The position numbers and the translations under genes were made by a program. Shown piece by piece: positions 40,790-64,000 of a stretch of 64,000 bases of DNA. The number at the start of each line of letters is the position of its first letter. Within the stretch, counting starts at the first letter, position 1. The notes under the pieces are model-generated. The model was given only the letters and a program-made list of their open reading frames with translations, ran no database searches and was not told the origin of the DNA. Origin of the DNA: a virus; IMG/VR virus record IMGVR_UViG_3300036944_000550, positions 32,536 through 96,535 of that record. One strand, written 5' to 3'.

Positions 40790-40915
40790 AAACTTGAGAG
40801 GGTATTAACCAGTGACTCCCCACACTGGGTCGTAAACGACAAAATCCCCCGATGCTTTGCTGTTACCAGATCGGCACCGAGGGATTCATATAACTATTTA
40901 TAGATTTTGAATCCC
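40790..40915 (-). promoter_or_regulatory. structured 5' leader of the wall hydrolase gene
   Basis: From the late promoter to the ATG lies about 125 nt of folded RNA. AATCCCTCGGTGC pairs with GCATCGGGGGATT (13 bp, capped by CTG-GTAA-CAG), then GTCG-TTTA-CGAC and CCAGTG-N8-CACTGG. The AATCCC strand can instead pair with GGGATTCA just upstream (8 bp with TGAATCCC), so two folds exclude each other. Could be an attenuator, riboswitch or RNA processing site. Confidence 0.5.
40895..40902 (-). promoter_or_regulatory. T4-type late promoter for wall hydrolase-gp33-gp59
   Basis: Exact TATAAATA on the - strand in the loop of the GGGATTCA/TGAATCCC inverted repeat, between the tmRNA and the hydrolase gene. 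Confidence 0.7.
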
Positions 40916-41001
40916 TATGTTAACTCGTTCCACCCGTTTAATCGAACGGTTGATAGTTTTATTCTGTTTCGAGGAAAAACTATCAAAAACCCAATGCTAG
41001 C

Positions 41002-41037
41002 TTATGCAGCTAGAGCAAAGGCAACGTTATCGTTTGC
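41002..41037 (-). other. tmRNA tag reading frame
   Basis: GCA resume codon, then codons for NDNVAFALAA and TAA. The AND start and the ALAA end match proteolysis tags recognised by ClpXP-type proteases. Confidence 0.88.
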
Positions 41038-41117
41038 ATTTACAGTTTGTGGCGCTTTGCCAGTCAATCAGTCTCGGTATTCCTATTACACGAAAATCGA
41101 ATTCCAAGGTCACCCCC

Positions 41118-41187
41118 GTCATAGATACACTTTTCAGTTATTCGGTTGCTATAGCAATATCCGAGCCACTCAGGGCAAATGTATCTA
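41118..41187 (-). other. tmRNA intervening segment removed on processing
   Basis: 70 nt between the encoded CCA end and the 5' G run. It is flanked by a perfect 8-bp inverted repeat that would extend the acceptor stem and guide processing. Confidence 0.75.
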
Positions 41188-41256
41188 TGGTGGAGGTGGA
41201 GGGAGTCGAACCCTCGTCTTTCCGCTTTTATTGTCAACTGTCAACAACTGATATAT

Positions 41257-41287
41257 TATTTATACTATACATAACGTAGAAAGTCAA
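41257..41287 (-). promoter_or_regulatory. overlapping sigma70 and T4-type late promoters for tmRNA
   Basis: TTGACT (41282-41287), 17 nt, TATAAA (41259-41264). The same bases form a perfect TATAAATA late box (41257-41264). The tmRNA can thus be read by unmodified host polymerase early and by the late complex. Confidence 0.75.
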
Positions 41288-41292
41288 GTGTT

Positions 41293-55924: not shown

Positions 55925-57353
55925 TACATGGTCCAGTCGTGCATGTTATTTCCATTTTCGCAGAGTCGGCGGCAGTCAAGTTATTTTGTGTGACAGTTAC
56001 ACCAATTCCAGGACTATTTAGTAAAAGTTGAAATTGCTTCGCAGAAGCACCTAGTTGAGTAACAGATGCAGTAACTCCACCAAATGGTGCGCTGATATCT
56101 AGAAAATGGTTACCAGTCCCTTGTTGTAAGGCACTGATATTATTAGAGTTTCCTAAAGCATTGATAAACAACGATTTTCCGTTAGCGTCTTTTTGCTGTG
56201 CTGAGATTTGATTGCTCAGACCATTGGTAATAATCTCCGCATATTTACCACCATATTGTTGAGTCAGAGATACAATATTGTTATTACCAGTTATAGAAAC
56301 TTCTGCTAAATTCTTACCGATTGGTGTTACTGCTGTACCTTGATTAATAGTTACGCTGTTACCGCTACCATTGATCAGCATTGCTTGTGCGCCATTAACG
56401 CCACGAATTTGATTTTGCTTTGAGAACTGTTCGATATAAACCGAATTGTTAGATCCAGTAGCATTGATGTAAATAGAGTTTTGCGTAATCGCATTTGTTT
56501 GATTAATCTTCAATGATTGGTTCGCACTGATTGATGCCAACGGAAATGTTGGTTCTGGTGGCGCAGGTGGAGGAGGTGGCGGTGCAGAAGAACCAGCATT
56601 AGGAGCAACAGGTGTAAAGGTTGCTCCATTCAAGGAGGTTGTTCCTTGCATCTGATCGATAAACAGAATTGGTGATAATGCAGTATCGCCTAGATTGAAT
56701 GAGGCAAATCCTAAAAGATAGTTTCCGTCAGCAGGAACTGTGAAGACTGCGACTTGCCAACCTGTAGCACCGTAAGACCCCACAGAATAATTTCCAGTTC
56801 CTTGATTGGTGAATCCTAGAAGCGCGAAGTTTTGAGTTTGTCCGTTGATTGTCGGAGTACCATTACCACCAGTAACAGTGATCATCGATCCATCATTGTA
56901 TGGAACATAATCCGTCGAAACATACTGCCAAGCATAAGTGTATGTTGTTCCTGCTTGAAGGAACATTGTTCTACTGATAGAAGTCGCATTGGTAGGATAC
57001 ATGCTACCATTAGAGTAAATAGTATTCCTAATTGATGTAATTGTAGAACCTGACAACCCTAAAGTAGTCATGGCACCATCAAATCCAGGAGATCCATTTC
57101 CTGCTTGTAGCGATACCATGTAGGAACCATATGGAGTAACAGTCCAGCACTTACCGCCACCTGGACAGTAGTTAGTCATACCAGTTGTTACTTGAACACC
57201 CGAACCACTATCACTCCAGGAAGTTCTTGCTGTAGTTGAACCGTTACTAACAGTCCAACCTGTATAGTTGCCATTCTCGAAACCGTAGTTCGTTACCTGT
57301 GCGAATGCAGGCATCGCAAACAATAATAAGAATAGAGCAATTAGATTTTTCAT
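55899..57353 (-). CDS. secreted curlin-repeat protein (large)
   Basis: 484 residues. Signal peptide MKNLIALFLLLFAMPAFAQ. Residues 20-255 form a beta-rich N-terminal domain with TNYGFENGNYTGWTVSNGS and lectin-like patterns. A Pro-rich hinge (SSAPPPPPPAPPEP, about 255-270) follows. From about 280 come curlin-type repeats of N-x-V/I-x-I-x-Q and G-x-x-N (SGNSVTINQG, GNNNIVSLTQQYG, GNSNNISALQQGTGN). CsgA/B-like subunits self-assemble into amyloid fibres outside the cell. Coupled to the FecR gene by ATGA overlap. Confidence 0.8.
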   Translation of the reverse strand: MKNLIALFLLLFAMPAFAQVTNYGFENGNYTGWTVSNGSTTARTSWSDSGSGVQVTTGMTNYCPGGGKCWTVTPYGSYMVSLQAGNGSPGFDGAMTTLGLSGSTITSIRNTIYSNGSMYPTNATSISRTMFLQAGTTYTYAWQYVSTDYVPYNDGSMITVTGGNGTPTINGQTQNFALLGFTNQGTGNYSVGSYGATGWQVAVFTVPADGNYLLGFASFNLGDTALSPILFIDQMQGTTSLNGATFTPVAPNAGSSAPPPPPPAPPEPTFPLASISANQSLKINQTNAITQNSIYINATGSNNSVYIEQFSKQNQIRGVNGAQAMLINGSGNSVTINQGTAVTPIGKNLAEVSITGNNNIVSLTQQYGGKYAEIITNGLSNQISAQQKDANGKSLFINALGNSNNISALQQGTGNHFLDISAPFGGVTASVTQLGASAKQFQLLLNSPGIGVTVTQNNLTAADSAKMEITCTTGPCNGYSYTKN

Positions 57354-58495
57354 CTTGCACCTGTTTCCTGCATCACAGTTATATTACCTTGTGGTCTACC
57401 AGTTCCTGATGTTGTCCACTTATCGTCCACAAAGTTGTAAACATCTATCAAACCATTTTGAACAGATACCACTTGCGCTTCGTTACCTTTCTCCAACCAG
57501 ATAGTAACTGCCTGTTGTCTATCTTCGGAGAGTCGAGTATACACCCAACCGACTTGAACATTCTTCTTGAACGTAGGAGAAACATTAGTATAGACTGTTT
57601 CTGCTGGTTTACCACCTTCGTTAAATTCAGCAAAAACTTCTAGTAGTTCTTGAGGTGTTGCTTGACGAAGCATGGCAACTGTAACTTGTTCCGTGCTATC
57701 ATCGGTGCCTGCATCTGGATCCTTATTGTCATCCGATGCTGCTTTTGCAGGGTTAGTAAATTTCTTTAAACTATCTCTAGCAAGTTGAAGCAAACTTTGC
57801 CCATCATCCGTTTCTAGTGGAACAATTTGAACATTGTTATCTAGCGCCTTCATCAAAGGATTAATAACTACTGGTGGAGCAGGAGGAGCAAAGTTGTTTT
57901 CCACAACTGTTGCTTGGAATGGTTGAGTTAATGTAACTACGCCAGATGCTGTAATAACATCTATCATTCCATTCGGACATTCCGCAGTCTGTTTGGTGAT
58001 GTCTAATTCGTTATAACATTCGGGAACCAGCACGACCGTAGAACGACCTGCTTCATCAACCGACATAACGAAGTCTGTGCCACGAACTGCGATAGTAGCA
58101 GTTGGTGTGCGAATGTTTACGCCTCTGGGGTTTGTTTTTGCGACTTTACCTGACGCATATCTAACTGTTCCAAGAGCAACTCGTAACCCGAGTTTGCCTT
58201 TTGATTTCCCTCCACCATCATACACAAAATCATCCACAAGAAGTCGCGAGTTTTCTGTAATATTAACTGTTGTCGAGTCATTGAATGTAATCCTAAATCT
58301 ACCTTGAGAGTTGGTGGACACTGTGTCCATTTTTTCTACAGCAGAACCTTTAGATGCTGCTGTAGTCTTAGCACCACGCTTAATGGCACCACCTCCTCTG
58401 GACTCTGTTATCGACCCAATACCAGCAAAGGCAGGAGTCGATAACAGAAAAATCAGTAGAAGATTAGTGACCAGTTTTGATATTAAACGTGCCAT
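57350..58495 (-). CDS. secreted FecR-domain protein
   Basis: About 381 residues from the ATG at 58495; a GTG at 58507 is possible. Signal peptide MARLISKLVTNLLLIFLLSTPAFA. FecR-type domain at about 40-190 (GRFRITFNDSTTVNITENSRLLVDDF, GKLGLRVALGTVRYASGKV, GVNIRTPTATIAVRGTDFVM). The C-terminal half is mixed charged. FecR domains sense signals outside the inner membrane; in marine bacteria such proteins often neighbour CHASE2 cyclases, as here. Overlaps the small curlin gene by 32 nt. Confidence 0.8.
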   Translation of the reverse strand: MARLISKLVTNLLLIFLLSTPAFAGIGSITESRGGGAIKRGAKTTAASKGSAVEKMDTVSTNSQGRFRITFNDSTTVNITENSRLLVDDFVYDGGGKSKGKLGLRVALGTVRYASGKVAKTNPRGVNIRTPTATIAVRGTDFVMSVDEAGRSTVVLVPECYNELDITKQTAECPNGMIDVITASGVVTLTQPFQATVVENNFAPPAPPVVINPLMKALDNNVQIVPLETDDGQSLLQLARDSLKKFTNPAKAASDDNKDPDAGTDDSTEQVTVAMLRQATPQELLEVFAEFNEGGKPAETVYTNVSPTFKKNVQVGWVYTRLSEDRQQAVTIWLEKGNEAQVVSVQNGLIDVYNFVDDKWTTSGTGRPQGNITVMQETGAR

Positions 58496-59237
58496 TTGAT
58501 CCCACACTATTAATATTGATCACAGTTTCAGATGCGCCATACTGTTGTGTTGTTACAGTGTTTAGCGAACCTGTTAGGTTTACATATAGTGAGTGACCAA
58601 ATGTTCCACCGAGATCGGTTTGTGTAACATCAAAGTCATTATAGTTGCCTGTCACCAGAATAGTTTGTGACGCATTTGGTGATAACGCATCCATGTTGAT
58701 TGTGTTATTGTTACCGTTGAAATCCATAGAGTTACGGATGTTAGCACCCGAACCACGGAAAACAAACGAGTTGTTATTACCAGTGAATTTGGCATTCATG
58801 TCAAGTTGATTACATGAGGAGTCAGTAACTTCAGTTCCGCAACGGATGGTAGCAGTATTCAGGTCACCGATTTGACGAATTGTTACATCGGCGATTCCTT
58901 GGGCTCCTGTATCGGATACGATACCCATATAAAGTTGGTTTCCATTGCCTGTTTGTATTGCGATAACGCTCTGGTTATCACCACGTAGGTAAATAGGATC
59001 AATAGAAGAACCGATGACATTAGCAGTACCAGTTTGAACGATGTTAACATCTACGTTACCCCCTTCTTGATCAATATAAACTTTATTGGTTGTCGCAACA
59101 GTATTCGCTTCTGTTTCATTTGGCGAAGTTGTTACAATTGCTGGAGGAGTTGGTGCTGTTGGTAGCACTGTTTGTGCAGTCACTGATGTTCCATAACAAA
59201 GAGCAGCTCCAACTAATAAAAACTTACTTAGTTTCAT
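58464..59237 (-). CDS. secreted curlin-repeat protein (small)
   Basis: 257 residues from ATG at 59237 (signal peptide MKLSKFLLVGAALCYGTSVTAQ); an earlier start at 59285 would disrupt the signal peptide. Then repeats of the curlin pattern: NVDVNIVQTGTANVIG, NQSVIAIQTGNGNQLYMG, VTIRQIGDLNTATI, FTGNNNSFVFRGSG, NGNNNTINM, NYNDFDVTQTDLGG. Likely the amyloid subunit exported through CsgG. Ribosome site AAAGGAAAC. Overlaps the csgG stop. Confidence 0.82.
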   Translation of the reverse strand: MKLSKFLLVGAALCYGTSVTAQTVLPTAPTPPAIVTTSPNETEANTVATTNKVYIDQEGGNVDVNIVQTGTANVIGSSIDPIYLRGDNQSVIAIQTGNGNQLYMGIVSDTGAQGIADVTIRQIGDLNTATIRCGTEVTDSSCNQLDMNAKFTGNNNSFVFRGSGANIRNSMDFNGNNNTINMDALSPNASQTILVTGNYNDFDVTQTDLGGTFGHSLYVNLTGSLNTVTTQQYGASETVININSVGSNGTFNIKTGH

Positions 59238-60048
59238 TTGTTGTTTCCTTTTGTTTGAATCTCCATAGACTCTTTCTTTCACCATCCTTGATTAACTCAA
59301 CAACGGCCGTTTCTATGGCAGAACGGATCGCATAACTACCTGCTTCATTACTTGTTTGTTGTCCATCAAATTCAAATGCTTTAGTCGCCATGTCGAAAAA
59401 TGTGAATGCAGTTACTCCCTCGGAAGTAGAGAGAACAGTTTTCTCTACAGTAACCGAATTGAGAACTTCGCCAGTCTGGACAGAAACTAGACGAAGACTA
59501 ACTGTAACTTGGTCTTGTGTGTATTGCTGGTATGGACCGACGCCAAGGAATCTAGCACCAGTACCACCAGTTTTAATGTTAGAATTATAATCAATGATAC
59601 CACCTTCAATGATGATACCCGCAACCTTTAGTGGTGGAAGAGGTTCAGCCGCTTCTCCTGAAATTTGTTCACGCATCTGACGAACAAGTTGACGTTCTTT
59701 AATCAGCGAATCAATACCGACACGTTCAACAGGAATAAACCACTTACCGTTTCCTGTATCCTGTAGTGTTTTGATCAGATATGCATCTGCACCCTGAGTT
59801 ACCGCAGTCGAGAAACTGGCAAGAGTCGAAGATGGTTTACGTTGTCCAGTTCTATCAGTAAACGAATACAGCGCGATGGGAATTGGTTGCCCATCTAATT
59901 CAGGAAGATCCTTGAATAGTTTTGGATTTGCAAAACGCTTGACTTCAGCATCATCTCTAAAGAGATATGATTGGTTGGCAGTAGGATGAAGTGCACCGAC
60001 GCATCCAGAAAGAACTAACAAAAGCGGAAGGAGAATTAACTTTTTCAT
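59224..60048 (-). CDS. csgG: CsgG curli secretion lipoprotein
   Basis: 274 residues (E. coli CsgG: 277). Lipoprotein signal MKKLILLPLLLVLSGC (Cys16 lipid anchor). FTDRTGQRKPSSTLASFSTAVTQGADAYLIKTLQDTGNGKWFIPVERVGIDSLIKERQLVRQMREQ and IIEGGIIDYNSNIKTGGTGARFLGVGPYQQYTQDQVTVSLRLVSVQTGEVLNSV are the CsgG core that makes the nonameric outer-membrane pore. All key blocks are intact. Directly after csgF. Confidence 0.92.
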   Translation of the reverse strand: MKKLILLPLLLVLSGCVGALHPTANQSYLFRDDAEVKRFANPKLFKDLPELDGQPIPIALYSFTDRTGQRKPSSTLASFSTAVTQGADAYLIKTLQDTGNGKWFIPVERVGIDSLIKERQLVRQMREQISGEAAEPLPPLKVAGIIIEGGIIDYNSNIKTGGTGARFLGVGPYQQYTQDQVTVSLRLVSVQTGEVLNSVTVEKTVLSTSEGVTAFTFFDMATKAFEFDGQQTSNEAGSYAIRSAIETAVVELIKDGERKSLWRFKQKETTNETK

Positions 60049-60057
60049 ACCGTCTCC

Positions 60058-60507
60058 TTAGAATGCGAATTTAGCAATAGGAACGACAACAACCGTAGTA
60101 TTGCCATTCTTATCCACTACTGTTAGAGTAACTTCAGTTCCAGTCTTGACATAACTCACAGAATTACCATCGAGATTAAATGTTCCTGTGGTTGATGTTC
60201 CGCCTTCTGCGAACAGATTATTCGAAAGTTGTGTAGCAAGTTGAGCATAAACCTGAGAGGTAAACAACGCCATGAATTTAGCAAGAGGAGTATTTGATGC
60301 CTCTGCTCTTATCAATGCTGCTTTCGCTGCCTCTGCGTCTTTGATTGCCTGTTCGCGCGAACGCTCTTGTGCGTCGATTGACTGCACATGCGAAGACCAC
60401 CCATAACCAGTAAAGGAAGGTGATTTAAACTGTTGAACAATCGGATCGGCGTATGCTGGACTACTTAGACTTAGTAGCGTCAGGAGCATCATCGCTCGTT
60501 TTAGCAT
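60058..60507 (-). CDS. csgF: CsgF curli assembly factor
   Basis: 149 residues (E. coli CsgF: 138). Signal peptide MLKRAMMLLTLLSLSSPAYA, then PIVQQFKSPSFTGYGWSSHVQSIDAQER, a form of the CsgF N-terminus that inserts into the CsgG pore (F-x-N-P-x-F is changed to F-K-S-P-S-F). C-terminal beta part TTTGTFNLDGNSVSYVKTGTEVTLTVVD. Ribosome site GGGGAAGAG. Precedes csgG as a complex partner. Confidence 0.85.
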   Translation of the reverse strand: MLKRAMMLLTLLSLSSPAYADPIVQQFKSPSFTGYGWSSHVQSIDAQERSREQAIKDAEAAKAALIRAEASNTPLAKFMALFTSQVYAQLATQLSNNLFAEGGTSTTGTFNLDGNSVSYVKTGTEVTLTVVDKNGNTTVVVVPIAKFAF

Positions 60508-61161: not shown

Positions 61162-62280
61162 TCATCGAATGATTTCAATACTGTTAATACTATTTGCATT
61201 CCAAATTTCAAGATTATTTCGTAATCTTCCGTCTGACTTTAATGTTTCGTATCTTGAAGTCGCTTTTTTCTTCCACCAGCGAATAATATTCTCAAAATAA
61301 TGCTTATCAAAGTTTTCTTTGCTCTTGATCAGCGTTTTATCGTTTCCGAGGATGTAATTTTTTGAGTTTTCATACCCGTAAGTCGAAATATAAAATCTTT
61401 TTTGCGTTGTAACGTCTTTGTTCGCCTGAATTGCGTTAGAAAATGCCAAAAGTTCGCTAGAATTGTGAAATTTTAGTGAATTTTTGATAATTGACGTCAT
61501 TTTGTTCTGCATTTTCATTTTATACGACGCAATTCCTTCTCTGCCGAACAATGGGTCACCATTATTTTTGCTTGCGAACCAATTCATGGTCTCTAACCAG
61601 AAATCATCGGAAAATGAAAGGAGAAAATTGCTTACAGTATCGCCAGTGTATCGTATAAACGGTTTTAGACCATCATATTGCGATGCTTGCTTAATATTTC
61701 CGTATAATGATGTCGTTTCAAAGAGACAAGTTTCCATGTCATACTTCTTGTCGAACATTTCACGAAATTCATGAGATGCACAAAGAAGTGATAGTAGTTT
61801 ACCGCCGAGATAATTGAATCCGAACGGTTGCGCAGGAACAATAATGAATCCCATGACTGCATGTTTGTTGAATAACTTTAAATCAGGAACTTGCCCGAAC
61901 CACTCATTCCTCGGTCTAGAATTGATCAGAGGACTTGCGACTCTACAGAAACCAACGTACTTACCACTGTTCTTTTCGCGAACGATGAATTTAATTTCCT
62001 TACCGAATGAGTTCTCGTTACAGAAGGATGAAGTAATTTCAACCATCGTAGAGAACTCATTCGGAGAAGTTTCAAAGATCTCAAACTCCATGTCTTCTGG
62101 ATGCATGCTGAAGTCAGAGAATAACATGTTCTCTGGTTCATAACCTGGAAGTGTGAGAGGAAGAGTGTTTACGCGATCGAGTTTTTTCATACGCATGTGG
62201 TCGTCGATACGATCATAGTTTGACATATAATCAATAAATCGACGACCAATGTATTCTGCGTCTGCTTTATCTAATATCAA
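61162..62280 (-). CDS. DUF4338-like protein coupled to the TET/glycosyltransferase pair
   Basis: 372 residues; start TTG at 62280 forming TTGA with the glycosyltransferase stop, since no ATG lies near. KYVGFCRVASPLINSRPRNEWFG, AVMGFIIVPAQPFGFNYLGGKLLSLLCASHEFREMFDKKYDMETCLFETTSLYGNIKQASQYDGLKPFIRYTGDT are the conserved part, resembling the GGKLLALL...TTSxYG block I associate with DUF4338 (the domain of Druantia DruA). Family identity is from memory. Close coupling suggests a role in DNA modification or its protection. Confidence 0.5.
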   Translation of the reverse strand: MILDKADAEYIGRRFIDYMSNYDRIDDHMRMKKLDRVNTLPLTLPGYEPENMLFSDFSMHPEDMEFEIFETSPNEFSTMVEITSSFCNENSFGKEIKFIVREKNSGKYVGFCRVASPLINSRPRNEWFGQVPDLKLFNKHAVMGFIIVPAQPFGFNYLGGKLLSLLCASHEFREMFDKKYDMETCLFETTSLYGNIKQASQYDGLKPFIRYTGDTVSNFLLSFSDDFWLETMNWFASKNNGDPLFGREGIASYKMKMQNKMTSIIKNSLKFHNSSELLAFSNAIQANKDVTTQKRFYISTYGYENSKNYILGNDKTLIKSKENFDKHYFENIIRWWKKKATSRYETLKSDGRLRNNLEIWNANSINSIEIIR

Positions 62281-63086
62281 AACAGATCCGCTAGAGAAGA
62301 TTCTACCTTACGATACTTCTTATTACGGTCATGGAGTTTCAACTCTGCGTGACCTGTAGTTTCTCGGATATACATTGTGCAAAGTTCTGGGAACTCGTCA
62401 GCAATAATCTTCACGCTGTCATGCACATATTCCTTAGTGCGAACATCTTGAAGACCACCTTCTTCTTTGTAATACCGAGACTTGACTGTGTAGTTGTCAA
62501 GACGAGCAAGGACACCATTTTTGATATACTGACGAATAGAATATTCGTAGTCTTCACCATGGTTGGTTACTCGAGCGAGAAAATCATCATGTTCAACAAT
62601 CACACCAAACATCGAGGCAATGATATAACAAATGTCATTGTATACTCGATCTTTCATAAAAAACGCATTTGATGCTGCGTAGATACCAAAGGTCTTAGCA
62701 CCTACCTTCTCACATTCCTCAAATCCACGAAGAAAGATTTCTCGCTCGAGATCTTCGACACGACCCAACTTCTGTTCACTGATTTTGACTTGAACTTCTT
62801 CAATGTCATCATCGAACATCATCAGTCGTGTACCTTCCGGATACCAACGTTCAATGAAGTTACGTTGTCTGCCGATAGTCGGAACACCGCGAATAATCTG
62901 AATATCTTTTGCGTAAGGATTTTCCTTCAGCGCATTAGCATATCGGTCATATTCGCCTTCATCCTGATCATTAACAAAGATCGTGATTTTAGCAGGATCG
63001 ATGTTATATGATTCAAGAACTTTCAATGTCTTATTCTGAATAGTATGTTCACGATGATAAGACGGAATAGCAATACTATATTCCAT
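62277..63086 (-). CDS. TET-associated glycosyltransferase (TAGT)
   Basis: 269 residues. SIAIPSYHREHTIQNKTLKVLESYNIDPAKITIFVND, GVPTIGRQRNFIERWYPEGTRLMMFDDDIEEV (DDD metal motif, residues 92-94) and the pattern of conserved Lys/Arg match phage TAGT enzymes, which add sugars to TET-made 5-hydroxymethylcytosine in DNA. The gene directly follows the TET-type gene (TAATG overlap), the known arrangement. The C-terminus ends SSLADLF, a likely sliding-clamp-binding tail shared with TET. Confidence 0.82.
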   Translation of the reverse strand: MEYSIAIPSYHREHTIQNKTLKVLESYNIDPAKITIFVNDQDEGEYDRYANALKENPYAKDIQIIRGVPTIGRQRNFIERWYPEGTRLMMFDDDIEEVQVKISEQKLGRVEDLEREIFLRGFEECEKVGAKTFGIYAASNAFFMKDRVYNDICYIIASMFGVIVEHDDFLARVTNHGEDYEYSIRQYIKNGVLARLDNYTVKSRYYKEEGGLQDVRTKEYVHDSVKIIADEFPELCTMYIRETTGHAELKLHDRNKKYRKVESSLADLF

Positions 63087-64000
63087 TAAAATAAATCTCC
63101 GAGTGTTGATGTTGTTTTATCTGCTGCAGGATGGTATTTAGAAACTGTTTCACGTCCGAGTTTAGTTTCAAGATAGTCATACCATTCTTGCTCATCCCAC
63201 ATTCCTGGCGATACTCCATTCCAAAGTGGACGATGATGCTTATGCTCTTTGTTCAATCTACGGTCAATCACATACTGCTCACGAGTTGTTTCATATTCAT
63301 ATGAACCAAGATCTAGCATGTTCTCACGAAGATAGCAAACCAACGAAATACGCTCAGCATCTGGACGAGTCAGTTTAATCTCAGTGTTACCATGGATAAT
63401 CTCGTGATTGCTCACAAGTAACAAGTCACCTGGACGAACGTTCACTGCCATCCGATATTCAGGGAATACTAGATAACCACCAGTATAGTCGCCACTACCC
63501 ACGACCAGAAGATTGCTGAGACCATCAGCAAAGTCACCAGCGTCGCGATGCGCTGCTGTTCGGAAGGACTTGTTGACAGTGATGGTGGTGAATACAGTTT
63601 CGGGAACAACGAACTTAGAGTCAATTGTGTCGACTGCTTTCTTTTGGTTCGACCAACGCGAAGGGAGAAGTTCTTTGAAACCACGGTCCAGAGTCTGTAG
63701 AAAAGGAAAGGACAACTTAAACTTATCAAAGTTATCGCGAGTATAGGTAGTAGCACGACCAAAAGGAATCCTAGGATAACGGTCATACCACCCAGCAACA
63801 CCTGAGAAAACCGACTTAGCATAGTTGGTTGTTGAAATCCAAGTTTCTGCAATAGTTTTTGCTTCTTTAGCAACATCTTCTTTGCTCTTTGCTTCTAGAC
63901 TATCGACCCACTTATCGAACCAACCAAAATATTCTGGATATACTTTACATACTTGACTGCGCAACCAGACAGCGCCTCGCGTCTCGTCAGCATTAGATCG
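63086..64000 (-). CDS. TET/JBP-type DNA base dioxygenase, 5' end missing (partial)
   Basis: The frame stays open to the window edge (12 residues, NADETRGAVW, before a TTG at 63964), so the gene begins outside. Counting from that TTG: FTTITVNKSFRTAAHRDAGDF gives His139-x-Asp141, GGYLVFPEYRMAVNVRPGDLLLVSNHEIIHGN gives His191, and ERISLVCYLREN gives Arg205, the full Fe(II)/2-oxoglutarate set of the TET/JBP family. It oxidises 5-methylcytosine (or thymine) in DNA to the hydroxymethyl base. The C-terminus STLGDLF resembles clamp-binding tails. All needed residues are present. Confidence 0.88.
   Translation of the reverse strand, partial: RSNADETRGAVWLRSQVCKVYPEYFGWFDKWVDSLEAKSKEDVAKEAKTIAETWISTTNYAKSVFSGVAGWYDRYPRIPFGRATTYTRDNFDKFKLSFPFLQTLDRGFKELLPSRWSNQKKAVDTIDSKFVVPETVFTTITVNKSFRTAAHRDAGDFADGLSNLLVVGSGDYTGGYLVFPEYRMAVNVRPGDLLLVSNHEIIHGNTEIKLTRPDAERISLVCYLRENMLDLGSYEYETTREQYVIDRRLNKEHKHHRPLWNGVSPGMWDEQEWYDYLETKLGRETVSKYHPAADKTTSTLGDLF

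Follow-up and report, generated by a model that had tools for sequence, protein, structure and literature searches.

To our knowledge, 5-methylcytosine (5mC) is the only experimentally assigned substrate of a phage TET dioxygenase. Pairs of a TET and a TAGT glycosyltransferase, as well as phage TETs linked to a methyltransferase, are already known (Pfam TAGT; Burke et al., 2021, as cited in PMC11404850). The best-studied TAGT, that of phage T6, acts on glucosyl-hmC, and solitary TAGTs of unknown role occur in 288 of 753 phage genomes (PMC13216743). Furthermore, the Rhodococcus phage Tonitrus harbors a parB-TET-like-aGPT-Pplase2-5hmU kinase cluster, which has been annotated as a proposed thymidine hypermodification system (PMC11955845). 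A literature search made outside the main phage-TET papers returned no paper on T4-like phage TET operons with exchangeable cassettes and no methyltransferase. The databases already contain such TETs in the T4-like phages Cr30, DLP6 and C48C1, where they are labelled hypothetical or 'SNF2 DNA repair protein'.

The window analyzed here, a stretch of 64,000 nt in total, ends at the exact end of the 96,535-nt IMG/VR contig IMGVR_UViG_3300036944_000550. With 96.5 kb in comparison to 139-168 kb for complete relatives, the contig is an incomplete genome. It encodes several T4-type proteins, namely gp46/47-like nuclease subunits, a DNA helicase, the major head protein, the portal and the tail sheath. 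Starting from the contig end, a TET gene, a TAGT gene and a DruA-like gene follow each other on the minus strand with head-to-tail overlaps (Table 1). The TET stop and the TAGT start share a single nucleotide (TTTTAATGG), the DruA-like gene overlaps the TAGT gene by 4 nt, and the Pfam scores of all three genes were well over the curated cut-offs. An earlier note on this DNA had described two adjacent, coupled TET and TAGT genes at 62277-64000, and open reading frames, strand, overlap and Pfam matches all agree with this description.

Table 1. Features of the modification operon and its surroundings (positions in the window).
Feature	Position	Strand	Basis
TET/JBP-family 2OG-Fe(II) dioxygenase, C-terminal 304 aa, 5' end missing at contig end	63086..64000	minus	Pfam Tet_JBP, phrog_24024, L007 homolog model
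TAGT-family (PF20691) GT-A type glycosyltransferase, DDD motif	62277..63086	minus	Pfam TAGT, TET overlap, TET linkage
DruA/DUF4338-like protein, operon gene 3	61162..62280	minus	Pfam DruA 3.8e-11
Two tandem related small proteins, 95 and 88 aa	60576-61129	minus	same PHROG family, weak holin-like match
Curli (type VIII secretion) block: csgF, csgG, curlin-repeat protein, FecR-domain protein	57350-60507	minus	
Permuted alphaproteobacterial-type tmRNA gene	40911-41291	minus	Rfam tmRNA_permuted 91 bits; alpha_tmRNA 57.6 bits

A closer look at the surroundings revealed a curli block downstream of the operon, separated from the DruA-like gene by the two small tandem proteins. A comparable block is located behind the operon in most of the close relatives (L007-L014), and pelagiphages are known to carry curli genes (PMC9599517). 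The contig shows a mild TA depletion together with an excess of CA/TG dinucleotides, a skew that was set aside as uninformative. The permuted tmRNA gene, for which ARAGORN predicted the tag ANDNVAFALAA, suggests an alphaproteobacterial host for this T4-like phage.

The first protein of the operon matched the Pfam family Tet_JBP (PF12851) with an E-value of 3.7e-24 (85.2 bits, cut-off 34.9) and phrog_24024 with 2.6e-114. In agreement with the earlier note, the HxD...H...R residues are present, and they are invariant among the relatives. In the nearest relative, L007, the TET is 92% and the TAGT 97% identical to the window proteins. An AlphaFold model of the L007 TET reached a pLDDT of 85, and Foldseek returned CcTet (2.6e-10), NgTet1 (3.7e-10), human TET2 and CMD1 as top matches. 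Profile match, HxD...H...R set and TET fold (the fold taken from the L007 homolog model) make the window protein a member of PF12851. Since the complete TET of L007 consists of 445 aa, including about 140 N-terminal residues beyond the window ORF that are without a Pfam match, the TTG at 63964 is unlikely to be the real start codon.

The second protein matched Pfam TAGT (PF20691) with an E-value of 4e-13 (50.2 bits, cut-off 27.5). Of 94 relatives, 93 retain its FDDDI motif, which contains the DDD pointed out before, in the form [FLM]DDD. By analyzing 80 TAGT relatives on viral contigs, we found a TET ORF in all 78 loci with enough upstream sequence; in the remaining two, the contig has its first base at the TAGT gene or within it. 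In 55 of the loci, the TET stop overlaps the TAGT start to within a few bases, and in five more a gap of less than 20 nt lies between them. Profile match, DxD-type motif and linkage to TET place the window protein in PF20691.

Homologs of the DruA-like protein are present in S-SSM7, S-CAM9 and HTVC008M, and many T4-like cyanophages carry such a gene without a close TET. In cyanophages it sits beside clamp-loader or DNA polymerase genes, and one copy is annotated as 'mom'. The structural model was weak (pLDDT 67), with loosely GNAT-like fold matches, none of them at E<=0.001. Based on the weak model, the loose matches and the frequent occurrence in cyanophages without a close TET, we regard the DruA-like protein as no more than a possible third modifying enzyme.

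To characterize the gene content of the phage group, we combined searches for a C5-cytosine methyltransferase (PF00145) and for the thymidylate synthase/dCMP-HMase/dUMP-HMase family (PF00303). PF00145 was not found in the incomplete 96.5-kb contig itself. It was also absent from 86 records of related viruses, several spanning 130-162 kb, and from 13 of the 14 named phage genomes searched, a mostly TET-bearing set that includes the complete genomes of DLP6, C48C1, Cr30 and S-CBWM1. The only positive genome was that of Melnitz, whose TET is about 27% identical to the window type. Melnitz-type TET loci served as a positive control: a C5-methyltransferase lies beside TET in 52/52 loci with upstream sequence, a set that includes near-copies and is not fully independent. 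The Melnitz methyltransferase as query detected all of these loci, confirming that the search is able to find such enzymes, but gave no match in L007-L168 or in the window. Because of this difference, window-type and Melnitz-type TETs are two types distinct in gene content. The earlier note had suggested looking for a methyltransferase beyond position 64000 and had named its absence from the full genome, together with a lack of TET activity on 5mC DNA, as speaking against a cytosine route; the genome of this phage is incomplete, and the four complete relatives are without one.

PF00303 was absent from the contig and from the TET-bearing records searched, with the exception of Cr30, in which the copy found matches thymidylate synthase strongly and over its full length (373 bits). 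This absence sets the group apart from T4, which uses a hydroxymethylase at the nucleotide level, and from ViI/M6-type phages, in line with the contrast that the earlier note drew to the usual T4 route.

A different arrangement was observed in small phages, comprising the actinophages L171-L175 and HTVC112P (L005). Here, a gene with a ParB-like nuclease domain is the immediate or nearly immediate upstream neighbor of TET. TAGT with a PIG-L-type deacetylase, or alternatively a P-loop kinase, often comes after TET. A C5-methyltransferase is likewise absent in these phages.

Siblings of the window TET with 76-92% identity carry different cassettes in one slot before the DruA-like gene. This slot is occupied by TAGT in L007 and L010, by a GalE-like epimerase together with a UDP-galactopyranose mutase in L008, and by GATase, amidoligase-like, ParB-like, ADDT (amino acid:DNA transferase) and Ploopntkinase3 genes in L012, L013 and L016. 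ADDT was found in the latter three siblings and is absent from the window's own contig. Among 55 de-duplicated TETs, 35 are accompanied by TAGT, 12 by ADDT and one by both, which corresponds to a near mutual exclusion (Fisher p=1.3e-6, a descriptive value that ignores relatedness). The TET tree requires 14 changes of the cassette label; for TAGT and ADDT, well-supported branches make 7-8 unavoidable.

Sugar-nucleotide genes were also detected beside other TETs, namely a phosphoheptose isomerase and a nucleotidyltransferase in S-CBWM1 (L004 5207-7921), a GalE-like epimerase and/or a UDP-galactopyranose mutase downstream of TET in C48C1 and L008 (L002 and L008), and an inositol-1-phosphate synthase in Cr30 (L003 10574-14021). 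These genes are hints of heptose, galactofuranose or inositol decorations.

Outside the TET group, the best and most of the ADDT relatives belong to the Ackermannviridae. In three such genomes, the PF00303 gene is present and TET is absent, whereas the TET-bearing ADDT phages show exactly the reverse. Phage ViI is a member of this family. In its DNA, T is replaced by 5hmdU and 5-NeOmdU (PMC6449724). As ADDT is shared with these thymidine-hypermodifying phages, the most economical explanation is that the 5-hydroxymethyluracil (5hmU) of the TET-bearing group comes from oxidation of thymine in DNA by TET.

Based on these results, we propose that TET oxidises thymine in DNA to 5hmU, which is then glycosylated by TAGT, and assign a probability of roughly 0.6 to this reading. 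In detail, the TET homolog would hydroxylate the 5-methyl group of a pyrimidine in the replicated phage DNA, most likely thymine to 5hmU, and TAGT would add a sugar to the new hydroxyl group, resulting in a base-J-like O-glycosyl-5hmU. The product of the operon would be a glycosylated pyrimidine made after replication. Thymine is the preferred candidate, as this phage group has no gene for an enzyme that makes 5mC or incorporates 5hmC/5hmU. The high identity of the window TET to its siblings indicates that the substrate is probably the same, so that the window TAGT would act on 5hmU as well. TET forms the constant core, and the tailoring genes that follow it (TAGT; ADDT and kinase; GalE/UDP-galactopyranose mutase; GT1) are swapped between close relatives. 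Protection from host nucleases is the likely purpose.

The competing idea, in line with the earlier note, is that TET converts 5mC to 5hmC before glycosylation by TAGT, the methyl group being provided by an unseen phage methyltransferase or by the host. Phage TETs acting on 5mC have been demonstrated (Burke et al., 2021, as cited in PMC11404850), and the TAGT of T6 works on cytosine derivatives (PMC13216743). The incomplete contig leaves formal room for a methyltransferase of its own, and ADDT and the kinase belong to the siblings instead of this phage. The main counter-evidence to thymine comes from the active site: the residue at HxD+3, which forms a hydrogen bond to N4 of 5mC in NgTet1 (Asp234), CMD1 (Asp350) and TET2 (Asn1387) (PMC11040006), is an Asp in the window TET and in 148 of 164 relatives, which would suit cytosine. 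Nevertheless, we consider the cytosine route unlikely. A C5-methyltransferase accompanies none of the window-type TET records, including complete genomes of Stenotrophomonas, Caulobacter and Synechococcus phages, in contrast to 52/52 for the Melnitz type, and a dependence on host methyltransferases is implausible across such different hosts. Thus, the TET-TAGT pair in a T4-like phage that the earlier note had recognized is real, and its reading as a DNA-hypermodification pair is supported. Its assignment to cytosine is doubtful, given that neither the four complete relatives nor any other related record searched has a C5-methyltransferase, and given the sibling tailoring genes, which point to thymine.

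Two candidate markers of the substrate were rejected during the analysis. HxD+3 does not discriminate, as the Asp occurs in both the methyltransferase-linked and the methyltransferase-free type, and the P-loop kinase is no proof of thymine, as a kinase-like gene (weak PF18751 match) is present in the methyltransferase-bearing Melnitz, too. A clear difference between the types was found at the R+8 position, which is Arg in 67/67 window-type TETs and Asp in 17/18 of the methyltransferase-linked type. R+8 aligns with His1904 of TET2, for which a base-contact role has been described (PMC11040006, PMC4224472). The exchange fits a different base readout without being proof of it. CcTet has an Arg at this position (Arg393) yet acts on 5mC; therefore, an Arg at R+8 is not specific for thymine.

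Weak oxidation of thymine, besides that of 5mC, has been reported for NgTet1. A TET accepting both bases, or a sparse-site epigenetic mark instead of bulk genome protection, would be compatible with the conserved Asp at HxD+3 and the clade-specific Arg at R+8, which leave both substrates open, and with kinetoplastid base J, which makes up only about 1% of T (PMC6449724). However, the repeated exchange of whole cassettes resembles arms-race evasion more than a conserved mark, and we regard this option as improbable. It is even harder to envisage that the operon does not modify DNA at all, with TAGT glycosylating another target and TET acting on RNA or being inactive: the catalytic residues are invariant, the linkage of TET and TAGT is near-universal, and the sibling cassettes carry ADDT, a family of DNA-base transferases.

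Returning to thymine as the substrate, a more far-reaching proposal, for which we see the odds as even, is that a TET/JBP homolog in a widespread group of T4-like phages oxidises thymine in replicated DNA and thereby replaces the dUMP-hydroxymethylase step. The exchangeable slot would then lead to sugar-, galactofuranose- or amino-acid-decorated 5hmU, and the version in the window would be a phage base J. If true, T4-like phages would possess a second route to thymidine hypermodification, in which the base is altered within DNA instead of the nucleotide pool. A methyltransferase-free type acting on thymine would give JBP a counterpart in prokaryotes and might inform the question of the origin of base J. 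In addition, the swapped genes behind the constant TET (TAGT, ADDT/kinase, UDP-galactopyranose mutase sets and GT1) offer a naturally occurring collection of DNA tailoring enzymes that depend on TET, and some phages of the group, such as Cr30, DLP6 and S-CBWM1, are cultivable.

Among known systems, the operon resembles the Melnitz-type clusters of TET and C5-methyltransferase (Burke et al., 2021), which also combine a phage-encoded TET/JBP dioxygenase with subsequent tailoring enzymes, presumably acting after replication. It differs in the missing methyltransferase (0 loci versus 52/52), a TET of only about 27% identity and the Arg instead of Asp at R+8. With T4 and T6 it shares the T4-like phage background and a TAGT-family enzyme (PF20691 in T6). 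In contrast to the formation of hmC at the nucleotide level followed by alpha/beta-GT or TAGT in these phages, TET is present and no member of the dCMP hydroxymethylase family occurs in the contig or its relatives, apart from the Cr30 copy with its strong match to thymidylate synthase. Tonitrus likewise has a TET-like protein in a proposed hypermodification cluster, but is an unrelated actinophage with no TAGT reported, and its system is known from annotation only. The thymidine hypermodification of Ackermannviridae, M6 and phiW-14, based on 5hmdU, a 5hmdU kinase and a transferase, resembles the sibling TET operons with their ADDT-family transferase and P-loop kinase. There, 5hmdU originates from a hydroxymethylase of the thymidylate-synthase family at the nucleotide level, which the TET-bearing siblings do not have; the window contig contains neither a PF00303 hydroxymethylase nor ADDT, and carries TAGT instead. 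The kinetoplastid base J pathway (JBP1/2 thymine dioxygenase and JGT) differs in that the enzymes described here are phage proteins with a glycosyltransferase of the TAGT family, no J-binding domain was seen by Pfam, and their chemistry is a prediction. In both cases, a TET/JBP dioxygenase is paired with a glycosyltransferase, and the predicted path from thymine via 5hmU to O-glycosyl-5hmU is the same.
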